From a virus, in the IMG/VR virus record IMGVR_UViG_3300000117_000031, positions 1-44,686 of that record: 44,686 bases of DNA. One strand, 5' to 3'. A model generated the notes under the pieces. That model was not told where the DNA came from. It ran no database searches and saw only the letters and a list, made by a program, of their open reading frames with translations. The position numbers and the translations under genes were made by a program. This document shows, piece after piece, positions 9,651-38,111 of this stretch (positions are counted from its first letter, which is position 1; each line of letters opens with the position of its first letter).

Positions 9651-11195
9651 TTAATTTGCGTATACAACTTGGGTATCTAACCAGTTAGACCCCATTTTTA
9701 CCTCGACAGAGATCGGCATATCGTATTCTACACCATACCTGCGTCGGCACTCTTCAGGTAGAGACATCATTGCTTCTACCACAAGATTAGTACAAGTATC
9801 CTCCTCACCGGGGAATATGTCAAGCACAATACTATCGTGCACCGTATTACATATCACACTTTTTAAATTCTTACTTTTCATAGACTTAGAAAGATAAATT
9901 AAAGAGATTGGCAAGAGATCCCCGGTTGCAAACCCCTGCACAGGGTAGTTGCAGATGGCTGTCCGGTTGGTCGCCGTACCCCAGTCTGTCCACGTCGTAC
10001 CGGGAAACGCATACTGTCTTCCGGATGGTAACGTGATGAAACCCTTCTCGACTGCGTCGCTCTGTAGTTTGTCGTGCCACGCAGTTACCCCCGCGTACTT
10101 GTCTTTGAACGCACGGTAGTATCGTTGCTGATCAGGAGTACCTGTTGTTCCCCCGTAGAGCGGTTTAAAAGTATGAGCCTTCGCTTCTTGCCGCGAGCAT
10201 CCAATAATTTCAGCAGTGACAGTATGTACATCCGTCTTGTTCTCCACGTCGTGGTACACCTGCGGGTCGTTCGCTAAGAATCCTGCGACTCTGAACTCGA
10301 GTTGCCCGTAATCAGCCTCGAGTATTTGCCCTCCTTCAAAACGAGAGACCATCGCCCGACGGATAGCGAATGTAGAACCACGGGGCATATTCTGGAAGTT
10401 GGGGTTACGAGAACTGAGCCGTCCTGTAGCTGTGACACATTGCATGAAATCGGGGTGTACGATGTTATCCCTGTCTTTGTTGTTTTTGAGTCCTTCAACA
10501 AAAGTAGAGAGGTAAGTGCGTAGTGCATTGTATCGGGAGTAACTCTCTGCAAACTCTCGGGCGGTACCAGAAAGTTCATCGAGGCGTTCTCTAAGTGTTT
10601 CATGGTCTGTCTTGAATCCGGCGGCGGCTGTGTCCCACGCATCTCGGGGAATGATTTTAAAGCCTGCCACTTCTTTAGTCGGCGCATAGATTACTCCATC
10701 CCCTTCACATGGTTTACAGATACGCACAGCCTTACCTTCCGTGCCATCTTTCTTGATAACTTTCTTGCGGCCGGCTCCCATACAAGCTGTGCAACGGGAG
10801 GCTACAGTCTTTCGTAGTATCTCCGTCTCATCCTTCACGTACATGCCAAATAAATTTTTTGTCATCTTTGTACGTTGCTTGGGTTTACGGGTAGCACCAC
10901 GTAACTCTGATCCCAAGTTGAAGATGGAGGACCAACGCTTCTTGTCTATCACTTTACGTGAGTAGAACAACATTGAGCGGTCATCGGCACTGTTTAGGTT
11001 AACGGGCGTGTCACCCATTGCTTCCTCAGCCATGCGCTGTAGCTTGACCTCGAGAGCGTTCATCTCGTCCCGATACTCTTTCTCAATGTCATTGAGCACA
11101 CTTGGGTCGATCTTGATACCTGTCCTCTCCAAGCTCGATAAGACTTCTGTCATCTCCAGCGACAGACGTAGGGTGTTCAATAATTTCGATGCCAT
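9651..11195 (-). CDS. Family A DNA polymerase with inserted DnaJ-like zinc motif, proofreading domain separate
   Basis: This 514-aa replicative polymerase starts at MASKLLNTLRL (11195) with AGAGGAG upstream. It begins at the thumb: TGIKIDPSVLNDIEKEYRDE is typical of the segment after the exonuclease domain. Motif A is ILEADYGQLEFR (D295), motif B is RQEAKAHTFKPLYGG (R335, K339, F343, Y347), and motif C is VHDSIVLD (H453, D454). The motif B residue equivalent to E. coli position 762 is Phe. Residues 135-142 (CTACMGAG) and 160-167 (CKPCEGDG) form a DnaJ-type double CxxCxGxG zinc motif between thumb start and palm. Such an insertion is, to my knowledge, characteristic of HMO-2011-like phages. 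The 3'-5' exonuclease is a separate gene at 11642-12190. Confidence 0.93.
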   Translation of the reverse strand: MASKLLNTLRLSLEMTEVLSSLERTGIKIDPSVLNDIEKEYRDEMNALEVKLQRMAEEAMGDTPVNLNSADDRSMLFYSRKVIDKKRWSSIFNLGSELRGATRKPKQRTKMTKNLFGMYVKDETEILRKTVASRCTACMGAGRKKVIKKDGTEGKAVRICKPCEGDGVIYAPTKEVAGFKIIPRDAWDTAAAGFKTDHETLRERLDELSGTAREFAESYSRYNALRTYLSTFVEGLKNNKDRDNIVHPDFMQCVTATGRLSSRNPNFQNMPRGSTFAIRRAMVSRFEGGQILEADYGQLEFRVAGFLANDPQVYHDVENKTDVHTVTAEIIGCSRQEAKAHTFKPLYGGTTGTPDQQRYYRAFKDKYAGVTAWHDKLQSDAVEKGFITLPSGRQYAFPGTTWTDWGTATNRTAICNYPVQGFATGDLLPISLIYLSKSMKSKNLKSVICNTVHDSIVLDIFPGEEDTCTNLVVEAMMSLPEECRRRYGVEYDMPISVEVKMGSNWLDTQVVYAN

Positions 11196-11403
11196 AGGCT
11201 TTAATCTCCTCTTGGAGTTTCTGTGAGAAAATCTCACCGTTCATTACGCTACCCATACCGTCGAGTACACCATTATAGTACTCGACACTTGTTAAGTCAT
11301 CATCCATGTCAGCTTCATTACGTAAAAACTTGTAGATGAGTACAGCAGACTCGCGGGTGATGCCCCCCATGAGTCCCTTATACGCTAGGGGTTTCTTGCT
11401 CAT
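11089..11403 (-). CDS. Hypothetical protein between the exonuclease and polymerase genes
   Basis: The frame starts at ATG 11403 with AAGGAGA upstream. It encodes 104 aa with a well-composed first two thirds (residues 13-70: GGITRESAVLIYKFLRNEAD, VEYYNGVLDGMGSVMNGE). The last third (after about residue 69) overlaps the polymerase 5' end by 107 bp and looks less protein-like. It might be a genuine overlapping gene or a remnant of a region that once joined exonuclease and polymerase. No family is recognised. Confidence 0.6.
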   Translation of the reverse strand: MSKKPLAYKGLMGGITRESAVLIYKFLRNEADMDDDLTSVEYYNGVLDGMGSVMNGEIFSQKLQEEIKAYGIEIIEHPTSVAGDDRSLIELGEDRYQDRPKCAQ

Positions 11404-11641: not shown

Positions 11642-12190
11642 CTATGCATACAGATCTTCCCACGTTGTCATGTACTTCTCCACTACCTGCTTACACGCAA
11701 CCTCCCATGTCGCCTGCACGTCAGCTATCCCGTATTCTTCTACGATCTCCCACGGAATCTCCGCAAATGTCTTGCCGCTCTTGAGGTAATCCTGCGTAAG
11801 GTCTTTCTTCTTTTCAGTAACCTCATACCTTTTCGCGAGGGCATCGAGGGAGAGCGGCCACTTACGCGCCCTAGCCAAGAGATACTCCGCAACCATAGTA
11901 TCATATACGTGACCTTCATACGTGAATCCACATTCGCGAATCCAGTTAAGGTCGAACTTAACATTGTGCCCCACAACGACTTCTGCTTCATGTAAATCCT
12001 CCCTAAACTCCTCAATTTTATCACGGTCTTGGTCGTGTTCATTATGATGGACACAAGCGTATTTGACCGGTTCGTTGGACACCTTCCAGCCGATGCTCAC
12101 CAAATGATTACCAAAATAGGGAAGTGGTGTATACCCACCGTTGGGTTTTGGCTTGTGGGTACACTCCACGTCAAACGTCAATATTTTCAT
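11642..12190 (-). CDS. DnaQ-like 3'-5' exonuclease, the detached proofreading domain of the polymerase
   Basis: The start is MKILTFDVECTH at 12190, with GGAG 8 nt upstream; a slightly earlier ATG would have no better site. The DEDDy motifs are complete: D7 and E9 in FDVECT, D80 in GHNVKFDLNW, and Y153 with D157 in EEYGIADVQATWE. The 182-aa protein corresponds in size to the exonuclease domain that precedes the polymerase domain in Pol I-type enzymes. It probably acts with the polymerase at 9651-11195 as a two-subunit enzyme. It overlaps the HNH gene by 20 bp. Confidence 0.9.
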   Translation of the reverse strand: MKILTFDVECTHKPKPNGGYTPLPYFGNHLVSIGWKVSNEPVKYACVHHNEHDQDRDKIEEFREDLHEAEVVVGHNVKFDLNWIRECGFTYEGHVYDTMVAEYLLARARKWPLSLDALAKRYEVTEKKKDLTQDYLKSGKTFAEIPWEIVEEYGIADVQATWEVACKQVVEKYMTTWEDLYA

Positions 12191-12677
12191 TCTTGTAAAC
12201 TCCAAACTTAATCATAGCGTCTTTAACAGCCTGCCCAGCCTTACGTAACTTGAGGGCGTCCTCTTTTTTCTTGGCGTACCCTAAGAAAACATTCTTACCA
12301 AACACAGAGATGCTAACCTGCCACATATTCTTGCGCTTAAAGAAATGCAGGCCCGCATACTTTTTGGTTCTACGGTTATTGGCCTGTTCGAGATACGTGG
12401 CCCATTTCACATTGGCAGGTTCGTAGTTACCATTAACATCGAGTCGCTCGAGGGTCAAGCCCGCTGGTCGAATGCCTACGTCATCTACGAAGTTGTCAAA
12501 GCTCTCTGCCCACCTGTCACATACTTTAATGCCTCTACCGCCGTAGTCAGCATAGCGGCTACTATTTTCGTTTGTGCACCGATATAGCATCCCCTCCCAG
12601 ACACGGTACGTCTGTCTCAAAGGATTTCTAACAAAAGGTATTGTCCAATCTACTTTGTGTTTCTTTACCTTATTCAT
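12171..12677 (-). CDS. HNH-like homing endonuclease with AP2 DNA-binding domain
   Basis: The 168-aa protein begins MNKVKKHKVDW at 12677, overlapping the helicase stop by 8 bp, with GGAG upstream; the longer open frame is only helicase antiframe. Residues 20-104 follow the common phage pattern YADYGGRGIKVCDRW, then SFDNFVDDVGIRPAG, LTLERLDVNGNY and NVKWATYLEQANNRR. Residues 107-145 (GLHFFKRKNMWQVSIS, then FLGYAKKKEDAL) resemble an AP2-like domain. Proteins of this build are free-standing homing endonucleases that spread into neighbouring replication genes. The canonical first histidine is replaced (LERLD), as in many members of this subgroup. It sits between helicase and exonuclease without an intron. 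Confidence 0.85.
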   Translation of the reverse strand: MNKVKKHKVDWTIPFVRNPLRQTYRVWEGMLYRCTNENSSRYADYGGRGIKVCDRWAESFDNFVDDVGIRPAGLTLERLDVNGNYEPANVKWATYLEQANNRRTKKYAGLHFFKRKNMWQVSISVFGKNVFLGYAKKKEDALKLRKAGQAVKDAMIKFGVYKNENIDV

Positions 12678-13989
12678 TGAAATCGTTCTCCTCAGGGCTA
12701 GCCACCTGCTCTTGATTCTCAGGCGGTACAACAATGATTGTGTTGTTCTTTTCGTACACAGCCCGATACATGTCGATTTCACATGGTAATGTCCCGTGCC
12801 ACCCGTTCTGTTTGTTCTTTGAGACACATACATACCTCTTGGTGTTCTCAGGACTGCGGTCTCCCGTACGCCCGATACCAATGATGAGGTCCGCCTCACC
12901 TGCCTTGCCCGTCTTGGAGTTGTCGAGATACTGATACTCAACGTGCATCATCGACTCCGCCTCAGCAGAAGCCTGCGATACACCCCACACCAGACACTTA
13001 TTACGCTTCGCAATCTCTCGAGCTTGTAGGTAGATCTCTTTGAGCTTCTCATCACCACGGTTGTACTTACCTGCAATCTTGACCTTGTCTAGTTGATCAA
13101 TGAAGACGATGTCCGGTTTGTTAATCTTGCACCAGTCATCAATCTCCTGAATGGTCGTTCCAACACAGTCAAGAACATGCAAGCGGTTGCCGATCTCGCT
13201 ACGCCATACTTCAGCAAATTTACCACGCCCTTCACTGAGCTCTTTCCGCGTAGCTTTAAAAAAACTCTGGATGATACGTAATTTAGTTCGTACAGCCGGC
13301 TCTTCGTTTCCCCAGACCGAAACGGTAAGCCCTTGCTCGAGGAATTTCTTAGCGAGAAAAGATACAAATGTAGTCTTACCTGTTTCCGGCCGAGCAAAGA
13401 TGATTCCAAAATGTCCTCGATCCAACCCCGGAACGTAACTGGACAGGGGTGCCCAGTTGAAAGGGAAATCGGGTTCGAGCGTAAGGGAGTCCAAAAGCTC
13501 CTCGAGCCCCATGTCCACCTCCGTGTACGTCGTCTTCTCGCCAATCGAATCCTCCGCTGTAGACTCAATGAGTCGCTTGAGTTCTCCAAAGTTCTTCTCC
13601 TTACCGAGGAAGATGTTGACAGATAGCTCTGAGATTATCCGCGCACGATTACGCATCCATAGATCACGGATGACTCTCTCTTGTAGGTCAGTGTTTTTTC
13701 CAATGTCATCTTTGAGCGTATCAAAATGCTCCCAGTACCTCAGGCGAGTGCTGTCAGGTAGGGCGGGGTGCAAAGAGTCAAAATATGCCTGTAGCTCGCT
13801 TGAGGTTAAGTCTGACTTATATTCTGCGTGGGCTTCGACAATAGCTTGCCAGATAGGGGCCCACTCCCCTTCAAACATATCCTTAGTGAGTACATTTTTT
13901 ACACGATCATAGCACTCTGTCCGAAGACAGAACGAAATGATCTTACTTTCCAAGCATTGCTGTTCTAATGATTGTTCCACGTTCATCAT
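12670..13989 (-). CDS. DnaB-like replicative DNA helicase
   Basis: This RecA-fold helicase of about 439 aa unwinds DNA at the phage fork. The N-terminal 150 residues resemble the DnaB helical domain (VEQSLEQQCLESKIISFCL, LTKDMFEGEWAPIW). Walker A is ARPETGKTT (about residues 199-207) and Walker B is PDIVFIDQLDKV (about 293-304). Later strands carry the expected LVWGVSQASAEAE and GEADLIIGIGR. The start is uncertain: ATG at 13989 or 13986 lies close to a GGAG, while a GTG at 13980 has better spacing. It overlaps primase by 47 bp. Unlike T7 gp4, primase and helicase are separate genes. Confidence 0.92.
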   Translation of the reverse strand: MMNVEQSLEQQCLESKIISFCLRTECYDRVKNVLTKDMFEGEWAPIWQAIVEAHAEYKSDLTSSELQAYFDSLHPALPDSTRLRYWEHFDTLKDDIGKNTDLQERVIRDLWMRNRARIISELSVNIFLGKEKNFGELKRLIESTAEDSIGEKTTYTEVDMGLEELLDSLTLEPDFPFNWAPLSSYVPGLDRGHFGIIFARPETGKTTFVSFLAKKFLEQGLTVSVWGNEEPAVRTKLRIIQSFFKATRKELSEGRGKFAEVWRSEIGNRLHVLDCVGTTIQEIDDWCKINKPDIVFIDQLDKVKIAGKYNRGDEKLKEIYLQAREIAKRNKCLVWGVSQASAEAESMMHVEYQYLDNSKTGKAGEADLIIGIGRTGDRSPENTKRYVCVSKNKQNGWHGTLPCEIDMYRAVYEKNNTIIVVPPENQEQVASPEENDFNE

Positions 13990-14734
13990 CTCCAATTGAC
14001 TTCAAGTCTTTTTCTAACATCAGGATACCTGTAGGCACGAGAGTATTCAAAGCTCTCATGTATGTCAACGCTTTATCTGTTGCGTCTCTATCGAGGGCAA
14101 CGATCACACGCTTGAACTTGGTGAGGTCTGCAATGTGTTCGTCCCGTAGGCTAGTACCCAAGAGAGCGTAGCCAGTAGCCCAGTCCGAGATGCTGATGGC
14201 GGAGGGGATATCTTCCACAACAAATACAGTATCCGATGTGCCTATCCGGAAGCCACCCCGGTAGTTACCATAGCGGTACCACTTCGGGCGAGCCCCGATT
14301 AAGGTACGGCCTGCCCCATCAACAAGTCTACCGTCGTTATCCCGTATCGCGTACACAAGTCTCTTGTGTCGAACATCGTAGTAAATATCGTCGTATCTTC
14401 CGGACGTGTTTACGCTATCGACATAGTCCAAGCCTTTTTGAGATATCTGGCGTGACCAGCACTTGGGTTTCTCGAAGGGAACGTCTGGACATGGGGGTGT
14501 CTTTTTGTGAGTATTTTTACTCAGTATGGCTACTATATTGTCTGAGTTGTCACGGGTGATGCGGCGGTCAGTCCTTCCTCGCACTGTGCATTCTGCGTGG
14601 AAACAATTCCACATGAGCTCTCCGTTGGCATTTGTTACAGAGAATGTCCCCTTGTGTCCGCACGAGGGACAGTTCATTCTACGGGACTCACCGTCTAAAA
14701 GGCCGATGGACTCGACGTATTCTTTTACTTGCAT
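13943..14734 (-). CDS. DNA primase (zinc-binding plus TOPRIM)
   Basis: The 263-aa primase begins MQVKEYVESIGLL at 14734 with GGAGG upstream, and is the first gene of the minus operon. A zinc ribbon (C22-P-S-C25 with C44 and C49 in NCFHAEC) is followed by a linker and a TOPRIM fold: E174 in VFVVEDIPSA and D215/D217 in VIVALDRDA. This is the layout of the T7 gp4 primase half. The extended frame upstream runs through the iterons and is not coding. Adjacent iterons and an AT-rich stretch make this the likely replication initiation region. Confidence 0.92.
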   Translation of the reverse strand: MQVKEYVESIGLLDGESRRMNCPSCGHKGTFSVTNANGELMWNCFHAECTVRGRTDRRITRDNSDNIVAILSKNTHKKTPPCPDVPFEKPKCWSRQISQKGLDYVDSVNTSGRYDDIYYDVRHKRLVYAIRDNDGRLVDGAGRTLIGARPKWYRYGNYRGGFRIGTSDTVFVVEDIPSAISISDWATGYALLGTSLRDEHIADLTKFKRVIVALDRDATDKALTYMRALNTLVPTGILMLEKDLKSIGDDERGTIIRTAMLGK

Positions 14735-14747
14735 CGTTTTTCCTCCA

Positions 14748-14762
14748 GTCAGAAAATCTGAC
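14748..14762. repeat. Inverted repeat next to the primase ribosome site
   Basis: GTCAG-AAAAT-CTGAC is a perfect 5-bp inverted repeat around a 5-nt AT centre. Its right arm is part of the first iteron. It lies 13 bp upstream of the primase start, so it could act as operator or as a hairpin in the primase leader. Confidence 0.5.
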
Positions 14763-14836
14763 AGCGCAACCTTAAACGAAACTGACAACGCCGTCAAACA
14801 AAAAACTGACAACACTCCAAAAAAAAATCTGACAAC
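14757..14836 (+). repeat. Iteron cluster A, four copies of (A/T)CTGACA(A/G)C at 23-24 bp period
   Basis: Copies start at 14757 (TCTGACAGC), 14781 (ACTGACAAC), 14805 (ACTGACAAC) and 14828 (TCTGACAAC), with spacings of 24, 24 and 23 bp; each is preceded by an A-rich run. The full consensus with cluster B is AAAAACTGACAAC. The cluster lies in the divergent region between primase and the plus-strand early genes. The last copy abuts the -35 box of a plus-strand promoter, and an AT-rich stretch follows at 14843-14863. Evenly phased iterons suggest a replication origin or a regulator array. Confidence 0.8.
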
Positions 14837-14838
14837 CC

Positions 14839-14867
14839 TTCCCAAAGAAATAAATATGTGATACAGT
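14839..14867 (+). promoter_or_regulatory. Candidate sigma70 promoter P1 with conserved leader element
   Basis: TTCCCA (14839-14844), a 17-bp spacer and TACAGT (14862-14867) give four matches out of six to each consensus box. The sequence after the -10 box, CCGATCAACCCC then TGCCGGGGGTATACCC then ACTATGG (to 14902), closely repeats the one after promoter P2 at 31808. The shared leader makes the promoter more credible than the box scores alone. Confidence 0.6.
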
Positions 14868-14898
14868 CCGATCAACCCCTGCCGGGGGTATACCCACT

Positions 14899-15492: not shown

Positions 15493-15831
15493 ATGATTGC
15501 AGAACAATATCGAAACATCAAACCACACTTTGTCCATGCGTATCATGTGCCGATGGTTTACCGGTGGTCTTGCATCCTACTGGATCAAGATACGGAGAAC
15601 CCACCATTTCAACCGGCGCGATACTTTGTGGTTAATGTGTTTGCGGAAACAAAAGACGCAGTGTTGGATTGTTTAGGTGAGGAGTATCCGTGGTGCGATA
15701 TCATGTACGTTGATAAGGCACTCGGTGGACATAGTGACGATGATTTCCTAGAATCTTGGCTACACCATTTTGATGCAAGAGAAGCGATACCAGTAAGAGA
15801 GGCACCACATGGCACTAACTACAACAAGTAG
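15493..15831 (+). CDS. Hypothetical early-region protein
   Basis: The start is ATG 15493 (MIAEQYRNIKPHFVHAYH), one base after the previous stop, with GGAGGG 8 nt upstream; an earlier in-frame ATG at 15466 lies inside the preceding gene. The 112-aa product is alpha/beta with several aromatic residues (VPMVYRWSCILLDQD, ARYFVVNVFAETKDAVLDCL). No known domain is seen. Confidence 0.65.
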   Translation: MIAEQYRNIKPHFVHAYHVPMVYRWSCILLDQDTENPPFQPARYFVVNVFAETKDAVLDCLGEEYPWCDIMYVDKALGGHSDDDFLESWLHHFDAREAIPVREAPHGTNYNK

Positions 15832-16173: not shown

Positions 16174-16360
16174 AGCACTCGCAGACTGGAGAGCGAACGA
16201 CGAAAAACCATACACTTTTAGTGGAGAAACAAACAATGCAAGTACACGTAAACATAGTACGCACAACAACGAAATTCCCAAAGAGCAAAAGAAGCTTGAA
16301 GGACTACTCGCACTCCGTCTTAAAGAAGCCATCGAGCGCGAAAATAGGAAGCGCAGGTAG
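16145..16360 (+). CDS. Possible small basic protein overlapping the Cys-rich gene
   Basis: This 71-aa frame has a good ribosome site (GGAG 10 nt upstream of ATG 16145) and a basic helical end (LRLKEAIERENRKRR). It overlaps the neighbouring genes at both ends (29 bp and 125 bp) in another frame. Only about 60 bp are free of overlap, so it may be real or a chance frame. Confidence 0.4.
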   Translation: MRPKTIHHPEALADWRANDEKPYTFSGETNNASTRKHSTHNNEIPKEQKKLEGLLALRLKEAIERENRKRR

Positions 16361-16922
16361 GTACGTTAAAAAAGGTAAGCTGAAGGGCGCAGAAGTCTAC
16401 ACCCTGACCCTAACGGAGCGGGAGACTTGTCCGCAGTCTTGTGGACACTGGGACGATTGTTACGGAAACAATATGCCGTTTGCCCATCGCCTAGAACACG
16501 GGGAGGAACTCGAGAGGCGTTTGATCGAGGAGGTAGGAGAGAAATGCCGGCTTGCCGCTAGTAAAGACCGTAAGGTACTTATTCGGTTACATGTACTCGG
16601 GGACTTTTACAGTGTGGGCTATGTGCAGTTATGGCGTAAGCTTTTGGTCTTGCACAAGAATCTCTATGTGTGGGGCTACACGCACGTTACACCATCGGAT
16701 AACCTACAAATTTACCACGAACTCACACTGGCGCGGGACGGGTTTCCAGAGCGGTGGCACGTACGATGGAGCGACACTTGCGGAAAGTTTAGTGCGAACA
16801 GTGAAAAACTGACAACGACCGGTATAGTGTGTCCAGAACAAACTGGGCAAACAAAAGCTTGCACAACATGTGCTCTCTGTTGGGATGCTCCCGAAAAGAA
16901 CATCATCTTTCGGACGCATTAA
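16236..16922 (+). CDS. Cys-rich Gp88-like phage protein of unknown function
   Basis: The start chosen is MQVHVNIVRTTTK at 16236 with GGAG 10 nt upstream (a GTG at 16221 is possible). The 228-aa product has clustered cysteines: C65, C69 and C75 in ETCPQSCGHWDDCYGNNMP, then the block VLIRLHVLGDFYSVGYVQLW, and a C-terminal cluster CPEQ, KACTTCALCW. This matches a family I associate with phage Gp88-like proteins, where Cys-rich clusters flank an alpha/beta core. The cysteines could hold zinc or an Fe-S cluster. The biochemical role is not known. An iteron copy (16808) lies inside its 3' end. Confidence 0.7.
   Translation: MQVHVNIVRTTTKFPKSKRSLKDYSHSVLKKPSSAKIGSAGRYVKKGKLKGAEVYTLTLTERETCPQSCGHWDDCYGNNMPFAHRLEHGEELERRLIEEVGEKCRLAASKDRKVLIRLHVLGDFYSVGYVQLWRKLLVLHKNLYVWGYTHVTPSDNLQIYHELTLARDGFPERWHVRWSDTCGKFSANSEKLTTTGIVCPEQTGQTKACTTCALCWDAPEKNIIFRTH
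16808..16816 (+). repeat. Solitary iteron copy inside the Cys-rich gene
   Basis: GAAAAACTGACAAC ends at 16816 and matches the 13-bp iteron consensus exactly. It is 122 bp upstream of cluster B, close to five repeat periods, but lies within coding sequence, so chance or dual constraint are possible. Confidence 0.5.
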
Positions 16923-16929
16923 CAAAAAA

Positions 16930-16988
16930 ACTGACAACCTTGGTTTTACGAAAAACTGACAACAACCTGTATAAGGAAAACTGACAAC
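16930..16988 (+). repeat. Iteron cluster B, three copies of AAAACTGACAAC at 25 bp period
   Basis: ACTGACAAC begins at 16930, 16955 and 16980, exactly 25 bp apart, each preceded by at least four A residues. The orientation is the same as cluster A 2.1 kb upstream. The last copy ends at the ATG of a tiny membrane peptide gene (16989). A TATAAG box lies between the second and third copies (16970-16975). The two clusters bracket the small early genes. Confidence 0.8.
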
Positions 16989-17051
16989 ATGGAGTATATT
17001 GTGTGCGTCGCGATTATCGCGCTTTTACTGTGGAACACTCACAAACTGTGA
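16989..17051 (+). CDS. Tiny single-span membrane peptide of 20 aa
   Basis: The frame starts at the end of the third iteron, with AAGGA about 11 nt upstream. It encodes MEYIV, a hydrophobic core CVAIIALLLW and a polar NTHKL end. The composition is that of one transmembrane helix. A similar tiny membrane peptide lies just after the DUF932 gene. Phages use such peptides as holin-like or inhibitor proteins, but nothing here shows which. Confidence 0.4.
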   Translation: MEYIVCVAIIALLLWNTHKL

Positions 17052-17066
17052 GCCGTGGGACGGACT

Positions 17067-17095
17067 CGCGCGCGCGCGTACACACATGCGCGCAC
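17067..17095. other. Alternating purine-pyrimidine tract (Z-DNA prone)
   Basis: Twenty-nine bases alternate strictly between pyrimidine and purine: six CG steps (17067-17078), then TACACACATG and CGCGCAC. Such tracts can flip to left-handed DNA under negative supercoiling. It lies between iteron cluster B and the DUF932 promoter, in non-coding DNA. Confidence 0.7.
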
Positions 17096-17131
17096 CCGTT
17101 TCTTTATATGCAAAAATCTTGCAGAAAATAG

Positions 17132-17160
17132 TTGCTGTATGTCTTTTTTTAACGTACAAA
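17132..17160 (+). promoter_or_regulatory. Candidate promoter of the DUF932 operon
   Basis: TTGCTG (17132-17137), a 17-bp spacer rich in T, and TACAAA (17155-17160) give four of six matches to each sigma70 box. It lies 50 bp before the DUF932 start. Just downstream, ACCGGATC occurs twice (17167-17174 and 17185-17192), 18 bp apart, as possible operator half-sites. Confidence 0.4.
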
Positions 17161-17210
17161 ATACCTACCGGATCGGATTGGCCGACCGGATCACAAGAGG
17201 GCTTTTAGCC

Positions 17211-18221
17211 ATGAACGCAATAGTAAACAACCCAGAGCGTACCGCTCAGCGTATCCAAGATGGTTTGGAATTTACGCACAGCAACCCGCTCGACGTTGAC
17301 TTCTTCCGTGAACTCGGGAGTGTCCAAAAGGAAGCGATGTATGACCGCGACCGAAACTTGATCGATGGTTTCTATGCATTGCGAAACAGCAACACCCAGA
17401 AACTCTTGGCCGGTTCGCCGCCGGTATCGAAGTCGTACAAGCTTGTCGACCACGCACTAGCATTCAGAGAGCAAGCGCAATCGATCTTGGATAACCCATC
17501 GTTGCCGCACGACAACTTCACTGTTGTCGACCGGATCTTCGACGAAGGCCGCCGCGCAACTCGCACCGTGTACTTCAACGATCTCACTTTCGATATCGAT
17601 GGAAAAGGTCAAGGGATCACAGCACGAGCGGACATTATCAACTCTGTCGATATGTCTTGGGCTTTTCAGGTCTTCTCTGGAGCTTACCGCGACTACTGCC
17701 GAAACACTTGCGTCTTTGGCGGCCAGAAAGCTTACCACCAGAAACGGAAGCACACTTCAAACCTTTCGGTCTCGAGCATGATCGCGAAGAGCACTCTTGG
17801 CTTGGGGATGTTCAACTCGCACCGTGACCAGATGAACGCATGGAGAACGATAGATCTGCACCCGTCCCAGTGGGTAGAAATCCTCGAGAATACGATTTGT
17901 AAGAAGGGAGGGGAGGCCGCGCAACTCAGCACCGACAAATCAACCCGCGTCAATGGCCGTTTGCTTGACTACATGAACCACCGGTTCAACGAAGAGCAGA
18001 GGGAGCTTGGTTCTAGCATGTGGGCGGGATATAACGCGCTGACACATTGGGCAACTCACGTCGACGAGACTTGGGAGCGGGAGAACGAGGACGGCACACT
18101 TACCGAATTGTCTACTGGCCGTGAGAAATCGAATCCGCACCGCGTCCGATTACAGCGCGAGGCCAAGGTTCGGAATGTCCTCGAATCGCCCTACTGGCTC
18201 GCATTGGAACAGGCCGCATGA
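17211..18221 (+). CDS. DUF932-like phage/plasmid protein
   Basis: The start is MNAIVNNPERTAQRI at 17211 with GAGGG 9 nt upstream; the longer frame upstream crosses the CG-rich tract and is not coding-like. The 336-aa protein has a DUF932-like core: INSVDMSWAFQVFSGAYRDYC, then NTCVFGGQKAYHQKRKHTSN and a helical stretch with MNAWRTIDLHPSQW. DUF932 proteins occur on phages and plasmids near replication or recombination genes; their activity is not established. It is followed with a four-base overlap by a membrane peptide and then by a winged-helix gene. The family match is by reading, moderately certain. Confidence 0.7.
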   Translation: MNAIVNNPERTAQRIQDGLEFTHSNPLDVDFFRELGSVQKEAMYDRDRNLIDGFYALRNSNTQKLLAGSPPVSKSYKLVDHALAFREQAQSILDNPSLPHDNFTVVDRIFDEGRRATRTVYFNDLTFDIDGKGQGITARADIINSVDMSWAFQVFSGAYRDYCRNTCVFGGQKAYHQKRKHTSNLSVSSMIAKSTLGLGMFNSHRDQMNAWRTIDLHPSQWVEILENTICKKGGEAAQLSTDKSTRVNGRLLDYMNHRFNEEQRELGSSMWAGYNALTHWATHVDETWERENEDGTLTELSTGREKSNPHRVRLQREAKVRNVLESPYWLALEQAA

Positions 18222-18310: not shown

Positions 18311-18745
18311 ATGAAAACTTTAGAAACATTCAAGAACGACCTCGGCACACTTCGTACAGACCTTAACGCGACAACCTACCGCGTCGAGAAGGTGCAGGAG
18401 CTTCTTAGCGACCTAGTTGAGAAACTGGATGGATTGTACGACCAGTCGGTATCGAACAAGGATCAGGCCGTCGACCTAGTACGCGCCGCCGACGATCTGA
18501 AACCCGCGAAGGATAATCGCGCTTTGTGTTCTTCTCATTACCGGATGCTCGCTATCCTGAATGAGTATGGCGTAATGCACCGCGAACATGTGGCGCGTTT
18601 GCTTGGGGTGAAGGATCAGACAGTCATGCAAATGATGCACGTTTGCCGACACCACGGACTCGCACACTTGAAAACGCGGAAGGGTGTTGTTAGTATTCAG
18701 TCACTGGCCGATGGGGTCAGCGATAATACAAACTTTAAGATCTAA
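18311..18745 (+). CDS. Coiled-coil plus winged-helix DNA-binding protein
   Basis: The 144-aa product has an N-terminal heptad region (residues 1-60: FKNDLGTLRTDLNATTYRVE, VQELLSDLVEKLDGLYDQ). A winged-helix domain follows from about residue 75: HYRMLAILNEYGVMHREHVA, LLGVKDQTVMQMMHVCRHHG and the wing LAHLKTRKGVVSI. The coiled coil suggests a dimer. It is the best candidate in the window for a phage-encoded regulator, and its targets could include the iterons or the palindromes nearby. This is inference; it has no close relative that I recognise. Confidence 0.65.
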   Translation: MKTLETFKNDLGTLRTDLNATTYRVEKVQELLSDLVEKLDGLYDQSVSNKDQAVDLVRAADDLKPAKDNRALCSSHYRMLAILNEYGVMHREHVARLLGVKDQTVMQMMHVCRHHGLAHLKTRKGVVSIQSLADGVSDNTNFKI

Positions 18746-19423: not shown

Positions 19424-19463
19424 AAAAAAAGAAGCCCCGACAGCAGGGGGTACTGTCAGGGCT
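19424..19463 (-). terminator. Minus-strand intrinsic terminator of the predicted small RNA
   Basis: An 11-position stem with one mismatch and a 9-nt loop is followed on the minus strand by TTCTTTTTTT. No minus-strand protein gene precedes it, so it most simply ends the short transcript starting near 19517. Confidence 0.8.
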
Positions 19464-19517
19464 ATGGGGCGGGGGGTAAGCTTGGGGTAGTGTATAGGTT
19501 TACCCCGGCGGGCTTAC
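19424..19517 (-). ncRNA. Predicted minus-strand small RNA of about 94 nt
   Basis: On the minus strand a sigma70-type promoter (TTGACG, 17 bp, TACAAT; 19552-19524) is followed by a non-coding stretch and a strong terminator. The terminator arms AGCCCTGACAG and CTGTCGGGGCT (forward 19463-19453 and 19443-19433) pair at 10 of 11 positions, then TTCTTTTTTT (to 19424). The transcript would run from about 19517 to 19424. Near its 5' end, AAGCCCGCCGGGG and TATACACTA repeat the leader element seen after promoters P1 and P2. No ORF of note lies inside. The target and function are unknown; it might regulate the divergent late operon. Confidence 0.6.
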
Positions 19518-19743: not shown

Positions 19744-20148
19744 ATGAATCTCCTCCCCCAACAGAAGAAGAAACGTGAACTCTCCGACAAACAGCAGGCT
19801 TTCCTTACGGCGCTCTTCGAGAACGGAGGCCATTTCTCGAGGGCTTGCGAAGTGTCAGGTTATTCGCAAGGTTCCATCGGGTACCTTAAAGAGTCTCTTG
19901 CCGACGAAATTATCGAAGGAGCACGGAATATTCTTGCAGGCGGTGCTCTTAAAGCCGCGAATAAGCTCGTCTCGACCATTGACGCGCCGGAAATCGAGCG
20001 TGGAGATAACATACGGCTCCAAGCCGCCGAATCTCTCCTCAACCGAGTGGGTCTCGGGAAACAGGAGACTCACAATGTCAATGTCCAAGCTGTACATGGG
20101 GTGGTATTACTCCCCCCGAAGAAAGAGATGGTTATAGAAAATGGCTAA
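19744..20148 (+). CDS. terS: Terminase small subunit
   Basis: The small terminase recognises the packaging site and hands DNA to TerL. The 134-aa product follows the terminase small subunit pattern: KQQAFLTALFENGGHFSRAC, an HTH-like EVSGYSQGSIGYLKESLADE, then GGALKAANKLVSTIDAPEIE and LQAAESLLNRVGLGK. It lies directly before a short basic gene and terL, under promoter P4. The ribosome site upstream of ATG 19744 is weak (AAGTGATAAATC), so the start is a little uncertain. The family call rests on pattern and gene order. Confidence 0.85.
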   Translation: MNLLPQQKKKRELSDKQQAFLTALFENGGHFSRACEVSGYSQGSIGYLKESLADEIIEGARNILAGGALKAANKLVSTIDAPEIERGDNIRLQAAESLLNRVGLGKQETHNVNVQAVHGVVLLPPKKEMVIENG

Positions 20149-20452
20149 GAATAAACCTTACACAAATCCACCACGTGATGTCGAAGGATTCTTTAAAGAA
20201 AGGAGCCGCGTCAATAGACAGTTTAGACGTGAAGAAGATAAAGCCGCTGAAGAAGCTCGTAATAAACGATTAAGTACCACAACTATTCGTGATCGTCTCG
20301 AGAATCTCATCGGTCTGACTAAAGGTCGAGCAGATACTCGTGAAGCTAACATTGCGGCGGATAAAGCACGTAAAAAAGTGCGTAACCGAAATGAAGGGCA
20401 AAGAAAAGCCGGAGATATTAAAGCAAAATACCCTTCAAAAGGTAGTAGATGA
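20141..20452 (+). CDS. Small highly basic protein between terS and terL
   Basis: The 103-aa product is rich in Arg and Lys (RVNRQFRREEDKAAEEARNK, then KARKKVRNRNEGQRKAGD). It overlaps terS by 8 bp and terL by 4 bp (ATGA), so it is translated in a coupled chain with both terminase subunits. It may bind DNA or assist packaging. No family is recognised; the charge and location are all that can be said. Confidence 0.75.
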   Translation: MAKNKPYTNPPRDVEGFFKERSRVNRQFRREEDKAAEEARNKRLSTTTIRDRLENLIGLTKGRADTREANIAADKARKKVRNRNEGQRKAGDIKAKYPSKGSR

Positions 20453-22155: not shown

Positions 22156-23991
22156 ATGGCTAAGGTAACCCCAAAACAAGAAACCCTGAGTAATTTTGAA
22201 AAGTTGTACGACATCCTATTTTCTGGAGATATACCAGATCGGGACGACTTATTTGAACGTGTAAAAGCCGGGGATGAGCTAACAGTGCGTGAAGCATTTT
22301 TGGCTCGTATGTACGCTCAAGGAATTGAAATTGCCCCTGCTGTTTTAAAAGATGAACGACTCGGCCCTATAGCAAAAGACATCCAAGATCGTTTTGGAAA
22401 ACCGAATACGGATCAGCCTGTTGTTGCCGGTGGTCTCGCAAAACAAATTGAAACGGTATCAAATAAAGCCGGCGGACTCGACGCTTCTTATCAACAGCTA
22501 GTCAGTGATGCTGAAGCGGGTAAAATAACAGGTGTTAGCACTCAAATTAAAGCGTTACAACGTCAGGTTGAAAACTTTAAAAAGGGTGCTCTCGGTAAAG
22601 TGGGGGGTACAGCGGATCTAAAGTTCGCCAAAGCCCCTACGGATCGCACCATTCAAGCTATCGTCGAAGGGATTGCGCGTATTCCTGACGAAAACCTTCG
22701 AGATGCGGTGTACCTATCCATATTTGGTATGCGAAGCAAGGCTCTTTCGCAGATGGCGACAGACTTTGAGTCTGCGTCTGAGCTCGAAGTTCCCCGCCCC
22801 TACTTTGATGCGGAAACAGGGACTGTAGAAACGCCGAAGGTTAAGGGGCGTAAGCAATTAGGTGAGCCACGTAAAATGGGACCTATTGCAACGTCTATAC
22901 TACAGCGTCGAGCGCAGGCCGCCATAGATGCAGGTGAAACTTTTATTTTTCCTGATATTAGTGACGCTCAGATTCAAAAAGCTCTAAAAGATTACGTTTT
23001 TAACAAAAAATTCTTTCCGGCGGCAGAAGTAAATCATTTAGGTAGATTACCAACAGGTATGACAGATTTACGTCGCTTGTTTGTGTCTTACGTAGGTAAT
23101 AACTATCCTGACGATTTGGCTACAGCCGAAACACTACTAGGCCACAGCGCACCTCCTAAAGGGGCTACAAAAGTAGGCGCGAGATTTTACCTCACTGTTG
23201 ATAGCACTGAAGCTGAAGCTATAGGGACGTTCTTAACTGAATTTGAACAACGAGTAGCTCAAACAGTGGGAGCTAAATCCTACAACGATTTTAGTGCAAA
23301 GCTCGGAGTTCCGTTTGACGACACGTCTGTAGTTAACTTTGTCAATATTGAAACACAAAAGGACGAAATAAAAGCCGGACTCCGCGAAAAGCTAGAGGCT
23401 GAACAGACCCCGATGAGTGACGCTGAAAGACAGGCGTTGGAAGAGCAACGTATTCAGACAGCAACCAAAGGCGCAAATGAAGCAAAATTAGCCGCAGAAA
23501 CGGCGGGGCTAGAGGCTGAAAAAATTAAACAACAACGCCTCGAAGAACAGCAAAAAACAGCGAAAATACAAGATACAGCTCCAACTAGACAAGAGCGTCT
23601 CCAGCAAAACGCTATCGAAGAAGCAGAGGAAATCGCCAAAAAAACAGGCGGGTTAAACCTCGGCGGAATTTTTGATTTTGGAAAGAAAGCACTCGGAGCA
23701 TTGGGCGTTCCCGGAATGGGCTTTGTCGACACCGAGAATAGGTTAAAAGTTCTCGAAGAAGCTGGCTACGGAGGTTCTGAAGCAGAACAGTACGTCACGC
23801 AAGACATCGGAATGAAAGAAGGACCGCTCGGAGTTGTAGAGTTAGTAGGACAGGGGGTAAGAGCGGGAATGGAACAACTAGGAATGAAAGAGCCGCTATC
23901 TCAAGAACAGATTGATGCACAACAAGTGAAAGCGTACGAAAACCAACTATTAAACATGGGGATCAACCCCGAAGACATAAAAGCACGATAA
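22156..23991 (+). CDS. Probable virion protein containing a tyrosine-recombinase-like domain
   Basis: The 611-aa protein starts immediately after the terL stop. Residues 165-350 follow the catalytic domain order of tyrosine recombinases: AVYLSIFGMRSKALSQMATD (Arg box I, R193), KVKGRKQL (Lys in the beta hairpin), TFIFPD, then TDLRRLFVSY (R306; the usual His before it is T303), ETLLGHS (H330) and ARFYLTVD (Y345). N-terminal helices precede it. The C-terminal 200 residues are a long Ala/Gln/Glu coiled coil followed by a Gly-rich segment (LNLGGIFDFGKKALGALG) like head-associated proteins. Position between terL and portal suggests a structural or ejected protein rather than an ordinary integrase. 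Activity is uncertain because one catalytic His is replaced. Confidence 0.6.
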   Translation: MAKVTPKQETLSNFEKLYDILFSGDIPDRDDLFERVKAGDELTVREAFLARMYAQGIEIAPAVLKDERLGPIAKDIQDRFGKPNTDQPVVAGGLAKQIETVSNKAGGLDASYQQLVSDAEAGKITGVSTQIKALQRQVENFKKGALGKVGGTADLKFAKAPTDRTIQAIVEGIARIPDENLRDAVYLSIFGMRSKALSQMATDFESASELEVPRPYFDAETGTVETPKVKGRKQLGEPRKMGPIATSILQRRAQAAIDAGETFIFPDISDAQIQKALKDYVFNKKFFPAAEVNHLGRLPTGMTDLRRLFVSYVGNNYPDDLATAETLLGHSAPPKGATKVGARFYLTVDSTEAEAIGTFLTEFEQRVAQTVGAKSYNDFSAKLGVPFDDTSVVNFVNIETQKDEIKAGLREKLEAEQTPMSDAERQALEEQRIQTATKGANEAKLAAETAGLEAEKIKQQRLEEQQKTAKIQDTAPTRQERLQQNAIEEAEEIAKKTGGLNLGGIFDFGKKALGALGVPGMGFVDTENRLKVLEEAGYGGSEAEQYVTQDIGMKEGPLGVVELVGQGVRAGMEQLGMKEPLSQEQIDAQQVKAYENQLLNMGINPEDIKAR

Positions 23992-36773: not shown

Positions 36774-38111
36774 ATGGCGTTTGGTGCATTTGCATTTTCA
36801 GAAACACCGCTAGGTACAACTAGTATCTCTATAATTGTAGAGGCTACAGCTAGTACTTCTTGCGCGGCCACAACATCTGCTAGCGCCGAAAAAATATTTA
36901 TCATTGACACCGAAGCTGACACCATTCTCGGCCAAGCTTTTAACTCGAGTACAGCACGGGCAGTTTCTAATAGCGTAACGCCTGACGTTACAGGGCAAAC
37001 AACTTCAAGTTCTACAGCACGAGCAGTTTCTAATAGCGTAACGCCTGACGTTACAGGGCAAACAACTTCAAGTTCTACAGCACTTGCTGTCGCGAATGTA
37101 ACGACTGGCTCGACGGGTTCTGCAACAAGCTCCTCTACAGTAGTTGCGCTAGTAAATGGAGTGTTTGATAACATCGAGGGGTCTTCTCCACCCTCATCCG
37201 CGACTATTAGTGTAGTTTCCCCGGTATCTGTCGTAGAAGCTGTCGGAACTTCTTTAAGCTCATCCTCGGCTTTTGTGGTTACCGACGCAGAACAAGTCGG
37301 GGAAGTGCAAGGAACATCAGCAAGTTCTTCTTTTGTTTTTGCTGTAGCCAATGTAACGACGAATTCTTCTGGTAGTGCGGCGAGCACTTCAACGGGTGTT
37401 GCAGTAGCTAACCCAACAACTAATGTCACAGCACTAGCAACATCTTCTGCGACAGCACTGCAAACACACCTCTCTGGTGTAACCACAGTTCTTGGTAGCG
37501 CAATCTCAAACTCAACCGCTTCTGCGGTAACTACTACTAGCTCAAATACCACAGGAACTTCTACAAGCACATCAAGTGCTGTTGCCCTAGCTAATGTGAA
37601 TGCAACGGCAACCGGCCTCTCCGTAAACACATCAACAGCAGTAGCCGTAACCCCAATTGAAGCGACATCAACTGGTACTTCAAATGTATCAAATGTTGCC
37701 GCAACAAATATTATAGTTGCATCTCCTCTGTACGCAGTTGTTGCGAGTACCACGTCCGCTAGTTCAAAAATAGTGGCTAACGAAGACGGCGTTACCCTTA
37801 TTTCTTCGTCCACAGTTAGCACAGTTTCTGCAAATAAAATTGCAAATCCAGTTGTAGAATCCGCTGGAAACGCTATACTTAATAATATTACTGTTTTGCA
37901 TATCAACGTTGCGCCAACAGAAGACATTAACGGTAACGCTACCCTTAATGGCATTGGCCTACGAAACGTGTTCTTTAACCCTGCAAACTTAGATTATCGC
38001 CGTTTAATTCACATACCACAAGATTCTAACAGATACCTGTCGGTACCTCCCTCCTCCTCACGTATCTTATACATTAATCGGGACCTTCCCCGTATCGTAA
38101 AGGTAGCTTAA
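36774..38111 (+). CDS. Ser/Thr/Ala-rich repetitive fiber protein
   Basis: The 445-aa protein starts MAFGAFAFSETPLGTTSISI, with TTAGGAGA upstream. Much of it is built of degenerate units such as SSSTAVAVANVTT-GSTGSAT, low in charge and aromatics. One unit is duplicated at DNA level (63 bp; 36953-37078). The C-terminal 90 residues differ (NPANLDYRRLIHIPQDSNRY, YINRDLPRIVKVA) and resemble a conserved anchor. A long open frame on the opposite strand is a codon-bias shadow. It is likely a variable fiber or adhesin. Confidence 0.7.
   Translation: MAFGAFAFSETPLGTTSISIIVEATASTSCAATTSASAEKIFIIDTEADTILGQAFNSSTARAVSNSVTPDVTGQTTSSSTARAVSNSVTPDVTGQTTSSSTALAVANVTTGSTGSATSSSTVVALVNGVFDNIEGSSPPSSATISVVSPVSVVEAVGTSLSSSSAFVVTDAEQVGEVQGTSASSSFVFAVANVTTNSSGSAASTSTGVAVANPTTNVTALATSSATALQTHLSGVTTVLGSAISNSTASAVTTTSSNTTGTSTSTSSAVALANVNATATGLSVNTSTAVAVTPIEATSTGTSNVSNVAATNIIVASPLYAVVASTTSASSKIVANEDGVTLISSSTVSTVSANKIANPVVESAGNAILNNITVLHINVAPTEDINGNATLNGIGLRNVFFNPANLDYRRLIHIPQDSNRYLSVPPSSSRILYINRDLPRIVKVA
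36953..37078 (+). repeat. 63-bp tandem duplication in the fiber gene
   Basis: Copies at 36953-37015 and 37016-37078 differ at one or very few bases (CGGG versus CGAG near the start), with a partial third start (ACAGCAC). Each encodes 21 residues (ARAVSNSVTPDVTGQ and following). Near-identity indicates a recent slip or duplication. Confidence 0.85.

Follow-up and report, generated by a model that had tools for sequence, protein, structure and literature searches.

What are the four short direct repeats in front of the primase gene of this phage, and which protein, if any, reads them? The window, that is, the whole 44,686-nt stretch that we analysed, belongs to a record that is a 52.8-kb virus contig. 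Portal and primase put the phage near the HMO-2011-type podoviruses (HMO-2011 group), and no T7-type RNA polymerase gene was noticed among the proteins scanned. The earlier note described four copies of a 9-bp core with A-rich 5' flanks and a 23-24 bp period, and proposed an iteron replication origin. The repeats themselves are as described (array A, Table 1): the CTGACARC cores start at 14758, 14782, 14806 and 14829 on the plus strand, each with an A-rich run 5' of it. The best 9-mer (at most one mismatch) occurs four times in the 131-bp intergenic stretch, a count that 0 of 300 dinucleotide shuffles reach (mean 1.83, maximum 3). Over the whole window, CTGACAAC is found 9 times versus 1.65 expected. 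The flanks are also as claimed: close by on the left is the start codon of the minus-strand primase gene (14734), and on the right is a rightward operon. A perfect inverted repeat, GTCAGAAAATCTGAC (14748-14762), overlaps the first copy and adjoins the primase ribosome-binding site; it is not kept in the related genome L018.

The AT-rich stretch that was said to follow the array is present (14845-14861), but it looks like the spacer between the two boxes of an extended -10 promoter that is conserved. By eye, this is probably the rightward early promoter; a consensus promoter scanner does not list it. Its -10 is kept in relatives, array A stops just upstream of its -35 (by eye), and in the genomes checked by eye 25-38 nt separate the end of the array from the -10. 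In L019, L022, L024 and L051, the leader after this promoter, downstream of array A, carries the palindromic AAACGTACTTAGTACGCAG or a close variant, and in some of them the element is repeated.

The description of a single cluster is incomplete, in that the same word appears again 2.1 kb away in array B, directly 3' of the stop codon of the ORF at 16221-16922 and adjoining a tiny membrane-peptide gene. Nearly all near relatives examined have a small ORF at the position of this micro-ORF, among them L187, L037, L121, L126, L043, L125, L040, L055, L054, L053, L036, L028 and L048. In most of these ORFs the C-terminal segment is hydrophobic, and in some types the array B repeats fall inside the coding part. 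In one relative a tRNA-Cys gene (L043:5929-6002) stands between array B and DUF932. One further exact copy of the word in the window is probably coincidental, because relatives of any type vary in sequence there. The claim that the repeats are sites for a DNA-binding protein is thus well supported, with one word at two places per genome in a single orientation.

Table 1. Features around the repeat arrays and the candidate binding protein, in window coordinates.
Feature	Coordinates	Strand	Remarks
DNA primase gene	13943..14734	-	array A sits in its 5' leader
Array A	14754..14836	+	AAAWCTGACARC x4, spacing 24/24/23 bp, between primase start codon and rightward promoter
Predicted rightward early promoter	14839..14867	+	TTCCCA, 17 nt, TACAGT, TG extension
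Conserved leader GATCAACCCCTGCCGGGGGTA with short hairpin	14870..14890	+	just downstream of promoter
GP88-family protein gene	16221..16922	+	last sizeable gene ahead of array B
Further exact copy of the word	16805..16816	+	within coding sequence
Array B	16927..16988	+	AAAACTGACAAC x3 at 16927, 16952, 16977, spacing 25/25 bp
Micro-ORF MEYIVCVAIIALLLWNTHKL	16989..17051	+	begins right after final array B copy
DUF932 protein gene	17055..18221	+	downstream of array B
Small protein with weak HTH matches	18311..18745	+	
Hypervariable tyrosine recombinase, P0001, 611 aa	22156..23991	+	between TerL and portal; candidate binder of arrays A and B

We retrieved relatives with primase, DUF932, TerL and GP88-like queries. 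Close relatives have repeats at both the A and the B places, and the word differs from phage to phage. It is GATGTCAACC in L011, TTGTCAG in L014, L017 and L051, GGTCAACC in L016, CGTCAAC in L012, L023 and L040, TTACCATCC in L024, L025 and L054, TTTCGAGCC in L026, and GGCATCC in L010 and L036, with others besides. Within a genome the two arrays agree: the array A word is the array B word in 14 of 15 genomes, L009 being the sole case in which they differ. When all A arrays are scored against all B arrays of these 15 genomes, the median is 23 on the diagonal and 2 off it (permutation p = 1e-5). The word does not follow the primase, as phages with primases 86-90% identical to that of the window use other words, and in L018 and L019/L020, which carry the window word, the primase has only 64-69% identity to the window's. 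Relatives have between 1 and 5 copies at distances of 13 to about 57 bp; the regular phasing of the window, for which the earlier note suggested a conservation check, is therefore not a conserved feature. In a sister group (GP88-like gene about 50% identical), the form TGACAAA..CACGC is common to many recombinase groups, so that specificity is either coarse there or encoded in another way.

Which gene changes together with the word? We listed 19 genes over a span of about 8-26 kb, 17 of which had enough genomes to test. With motif classes set by eye after seeing the arrays, identity in the recombinase ORF at 22156-23991 predicts the word (AUC 0.775, permutation p = 0.0025). All other tested genes have p > 0.06, the small genes at 15809 and 16145 coming near significance (p = 0.06). 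No tracking appears for the primase, helicase, polymerase, DUF932, GP88-like or HTH genes, nor for the TerS-like gene, TerL, the portal or the small early genes. Three of these products, the HTH protein at 18311 (AUC 0.59, p = 0.21), the DUF932 protein and the primase, are the binders that had been proposed for array A. The slot just before TerL (20141-20452) holds an optional, highly variable small ORF, unrelated in some genomes; it is discarded as the determinant, being missing in the window-word phages L187 and L037.

All seven recombinase pairs above 50% identity have the same word. In a larger set, the seven recombinase groups with at least two members are all concordant by eye. Classified by regular expressions that were composed after viewing the arrays, 11 of 13 within-group pairs agree versus 76 of 548 between groups (p = 5e-5), and both disagreeing within-group pairs come from L034, which the expressions misassign. 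L204 and L205 form a natural double swap, in which array B and the recombinase (23% identity) are both replaced on a background of TerL DNA at 98%, the GP88-like gene at 96% and the flank after the array at 95% identity. The two genomes are 89-98% identical across most of the stretch from array to recombinase, and they also differ in two small stretches just before TerL. An exception is L075 and L081, which have array B in common and TerL DNA 99.5% identical but unrelated recombinases. Unrelated recombinases are at times found with the same word (TTGTCAG, TTACCATCC, TGACAAA..CACGC). Overall, the sites are asymmetric, specific to the phage type, and go with one protein, the exceptions being L009 and L075/L081. 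Scans with three recombinase types gave no new genome with array and recombinase together, as judged from coordinates.

The recombinase is far more variable than its surroundings. Beside TerLs that are 71-99% identical to that of the window, grouping of the ORF at 45% identity yields 43 clusters. In 57 aligned sequences with 14% mean identity, R193, R306 and Y345 are present in 57/57 and K230 in 55/57; position 330 is H in 32 and R in 25. The R-K-R-Y residues are the tyrosine recombinase catalytic set. Profile matches are to an archaeal Xer recombinase (E = 8e-10) and lambda integrase (1e-4). PF00589 matches 16 of the 57 family members, the window protein itself having no match. In a PF00589 search of 12 genomes, five have a single match, in an open frame whose length suits the ORF that follows TerL. 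The predicted model (pLDDT 78) gives weak matches with Foldseek alone, and the VIA realignment is clear over residues 152-380, which align to Xer (Z 12.1) and the Brujita integrase (Z 11.3). Otherwise unrelated types have a C-terminal tail of about 115 aa in common; together with the position between TerL and portal, this suggests that the recombinase may be virion-associated. Neither HMO-2011 nor HTVC033P has a recombinase between TerL and portal, and tblastn with the recombinases of the window and of L072 against 50,697 phage records (isolated phages) finds no match.

Tentatively, and with slightly less than even confidence, we read arrays A and B as phage-type-specific sites of a single DNA-binding protein that would control early expression; the likeliest candidate is the tyrosine recombinase that the phage itself encodes. 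That word and recombinase change together across genomes is more suggestive of a self-recognition system than of a replication origin. The recombinase would bind the A-rich 9-bp sites directly, and its position among virion genes would fit a protein made late and/or packaged and injected. It would assemble at two places: array A, in the primase leader immediately before the rightward early promoter, and array B, next to the small membrane-peptide gene; going by position only, it might loop the two arrays together. Early expression would then be controlled only on DNA that bears the recombinase's own word. The conserved catalytic residues point against pure regulation, which would not need them, and their conservation makes it probable that the recombinase also cleaves and rejoins DNA at some site.

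In being exclusive and fast-changing, the pairing is reminiscent of immunity or superinfection specificity, and such a role would account for the joint diversification and swapping of recombinase and sites. A bolder version, which we hold to be rather unlikely, is that a late-made or virion-carried recombinase acts as a phage-type specificity factor, reading its own word at the two early control points and so picking whose incoming DNA gets expressed. If true, recombinase and sites would co-diversify under selection for exclusivity, in an immunity-like system built on a recombinase. Dozens of types lie between two conserved packaging genes, paired with distant early words, in uncultured marine phages, and such pairing suggests that self-recognition at the level of DNA is under strong selection. 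The same pairs are ready-made cognate and non-cognate combinations with which to test the evolution of recombinase specificity and exclusion among co-infecting phages.

Several known systems share part of this arrangement. The operators and stoperators bound by the repressor of cluster A mycobacteriophages (L5, Bxb1) are short asymmetric sites in one orientation, with a consensus that differs by phage type and is matched to the cognate DNA-binding protein, and some are at early promoters (PMC6550527, PMC9283540). The arrays are like them in all these respects: short one-orientation asymmetric sites, a type-specific word, a linked protein, and a place, for some, at early promoters. They are unlike them in that the tracking protein is a tyrosine recombinase among virion genes and not a repressor of the immunity family, that each genome has two site clusters and not many scattered sites, and that we found no sign of lysogeny. 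The arm-type or accessory sites of lambda Int, Tn916 and TnpI of Tn4430 are enzyme-specific direct repeats of about 9-11 bp. The arrays would match them in repeat length and in enzyme specificity, with a tyrosine recombinase as predicted binder, but no core crossover site was found, the two arrays lie 2.1 kb apart at control points of early genes, and the recombinase gene is about 5-7 kb from them, between TerL and portal. With the lambdoid origin iterons and their O protein the likeness is in four direct repeats of similar spacing beside replication genes and in phage-dependent specificity; here, in contrast, the spacing is unconserved, there is a second array, no O-like initiator is recognised, and the tracking gene is not beside the sites. 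HMO-2011 and CRP-1 to CRP-3, of the same phage group, also have tyrosine recombinases, but unlike in the window the HMO-2011-type gene adjoins the primase and is annotated as an integrase.

The same recombinase could use the arrays differently, as arm-type or accessory sites of a site-specific recombination (integration, circularisation of entering DNA, or concatemer resolution) with any effect on transcription incidental. We regard this as unlikely, though as a serious competitor. Tyrosine recombinases are known to bind direct repeats (lambda Int, TnpI), and R-K-R-Y persists at 14% mean identity. HMO-2011 relatives have a tyrosine integrase adjoining the primase, and CRP-3 of this group integrates at tRNA-Met (PMC6918029). 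Against it, no conserved inverted core made of the word is found near the arrays or elsewhere, and the arrays are separated by 2.1 kb with genes between them. An inverted pair at 19437 was considered as the core and discarded, as it is a conserved hairpin also found in other repeat types; the hairpin, GCCCCGACAGC..CTGTCAGGGC, lies with a leader at 19430-19470 upstream of the TerS-like gene and is conserved across repeat types. No integrated relative turned up among 84,980 bacterial genomes, in a scan that reaches close TerL relatives only, and neither tRNA genes nor Rfam families were found in the window. Less probable still is that another phage or host protein, such as the HTH protein at 18311 or a small gene that was not sampled, binds the sites, and that the correlation with the recombinase comes from exchange of a linked module. 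The exceptions L009 and L075/L081 would fit such a binder, as would the two small genes approaching significance and the confinement of the gene comparison to about 8-26 kb. But the HTH protein does not predict the word, the primase, DUF932, TerS-like and TerL genes have no association with it, phages that share the word lack the variable small ORF before TerL, and L204 and L205 have 89-98% identity along most of the DNA from array to recombinase.

The iteron origin, in which an initiator would bind array A, melt the adjacent AT-rich DNA and load the primase-helicase in the manner of lambda O, keeps from its original case the tandem direct repeats near replication genes and the adjacent AT-rich stretch. 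Origin specificity varies among lambdoid phages too. The lowest point of cumulative GC skew falls in the 14-15 kb bin, where an origin would put it; since gene orientation also switches there, the minimum carries no weight in either direction. What stands against an origin is that spacing and copy number are not conserved, that an equal array with the same word lies away from the primase at the small membrane-peptide gene, and that the AT-rich stretch reads as a promoter spacer. Moreover, the word is replaced outright between relatives with primases 86-90% identical, no dedicated initiator gene is recognised, and the sole tracking gene is the recombinase. No finding favours an iteron origin in particular, and we rate it low, as improbable, because of the unconserved phasing, the second array and the lack of a recognised initiator. 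Most improbable of all is that the A-rich repeats are UP-like promoter elements for the host RNA polymerase with no dedicated binder: A-rich runs do lie directly upstream of the -35 region, but a 9-bp core that is not A-rich is kept at two sites per genome and swapped between genomes, and array B is not at such a promoter.

Elsewhere in the window, the family-A DNA polymerase is split into two ORFs on the minus strand (polymerase 9651-11237 and exonuclease 11642-12205, with a gap between), and an HNH endonuclease ORF (12171-12941) adjoins them. At 36950-37083 a 63-bp unit is repeated 2.1 times with 98% identity, and long ORFs overlap there on both strands.
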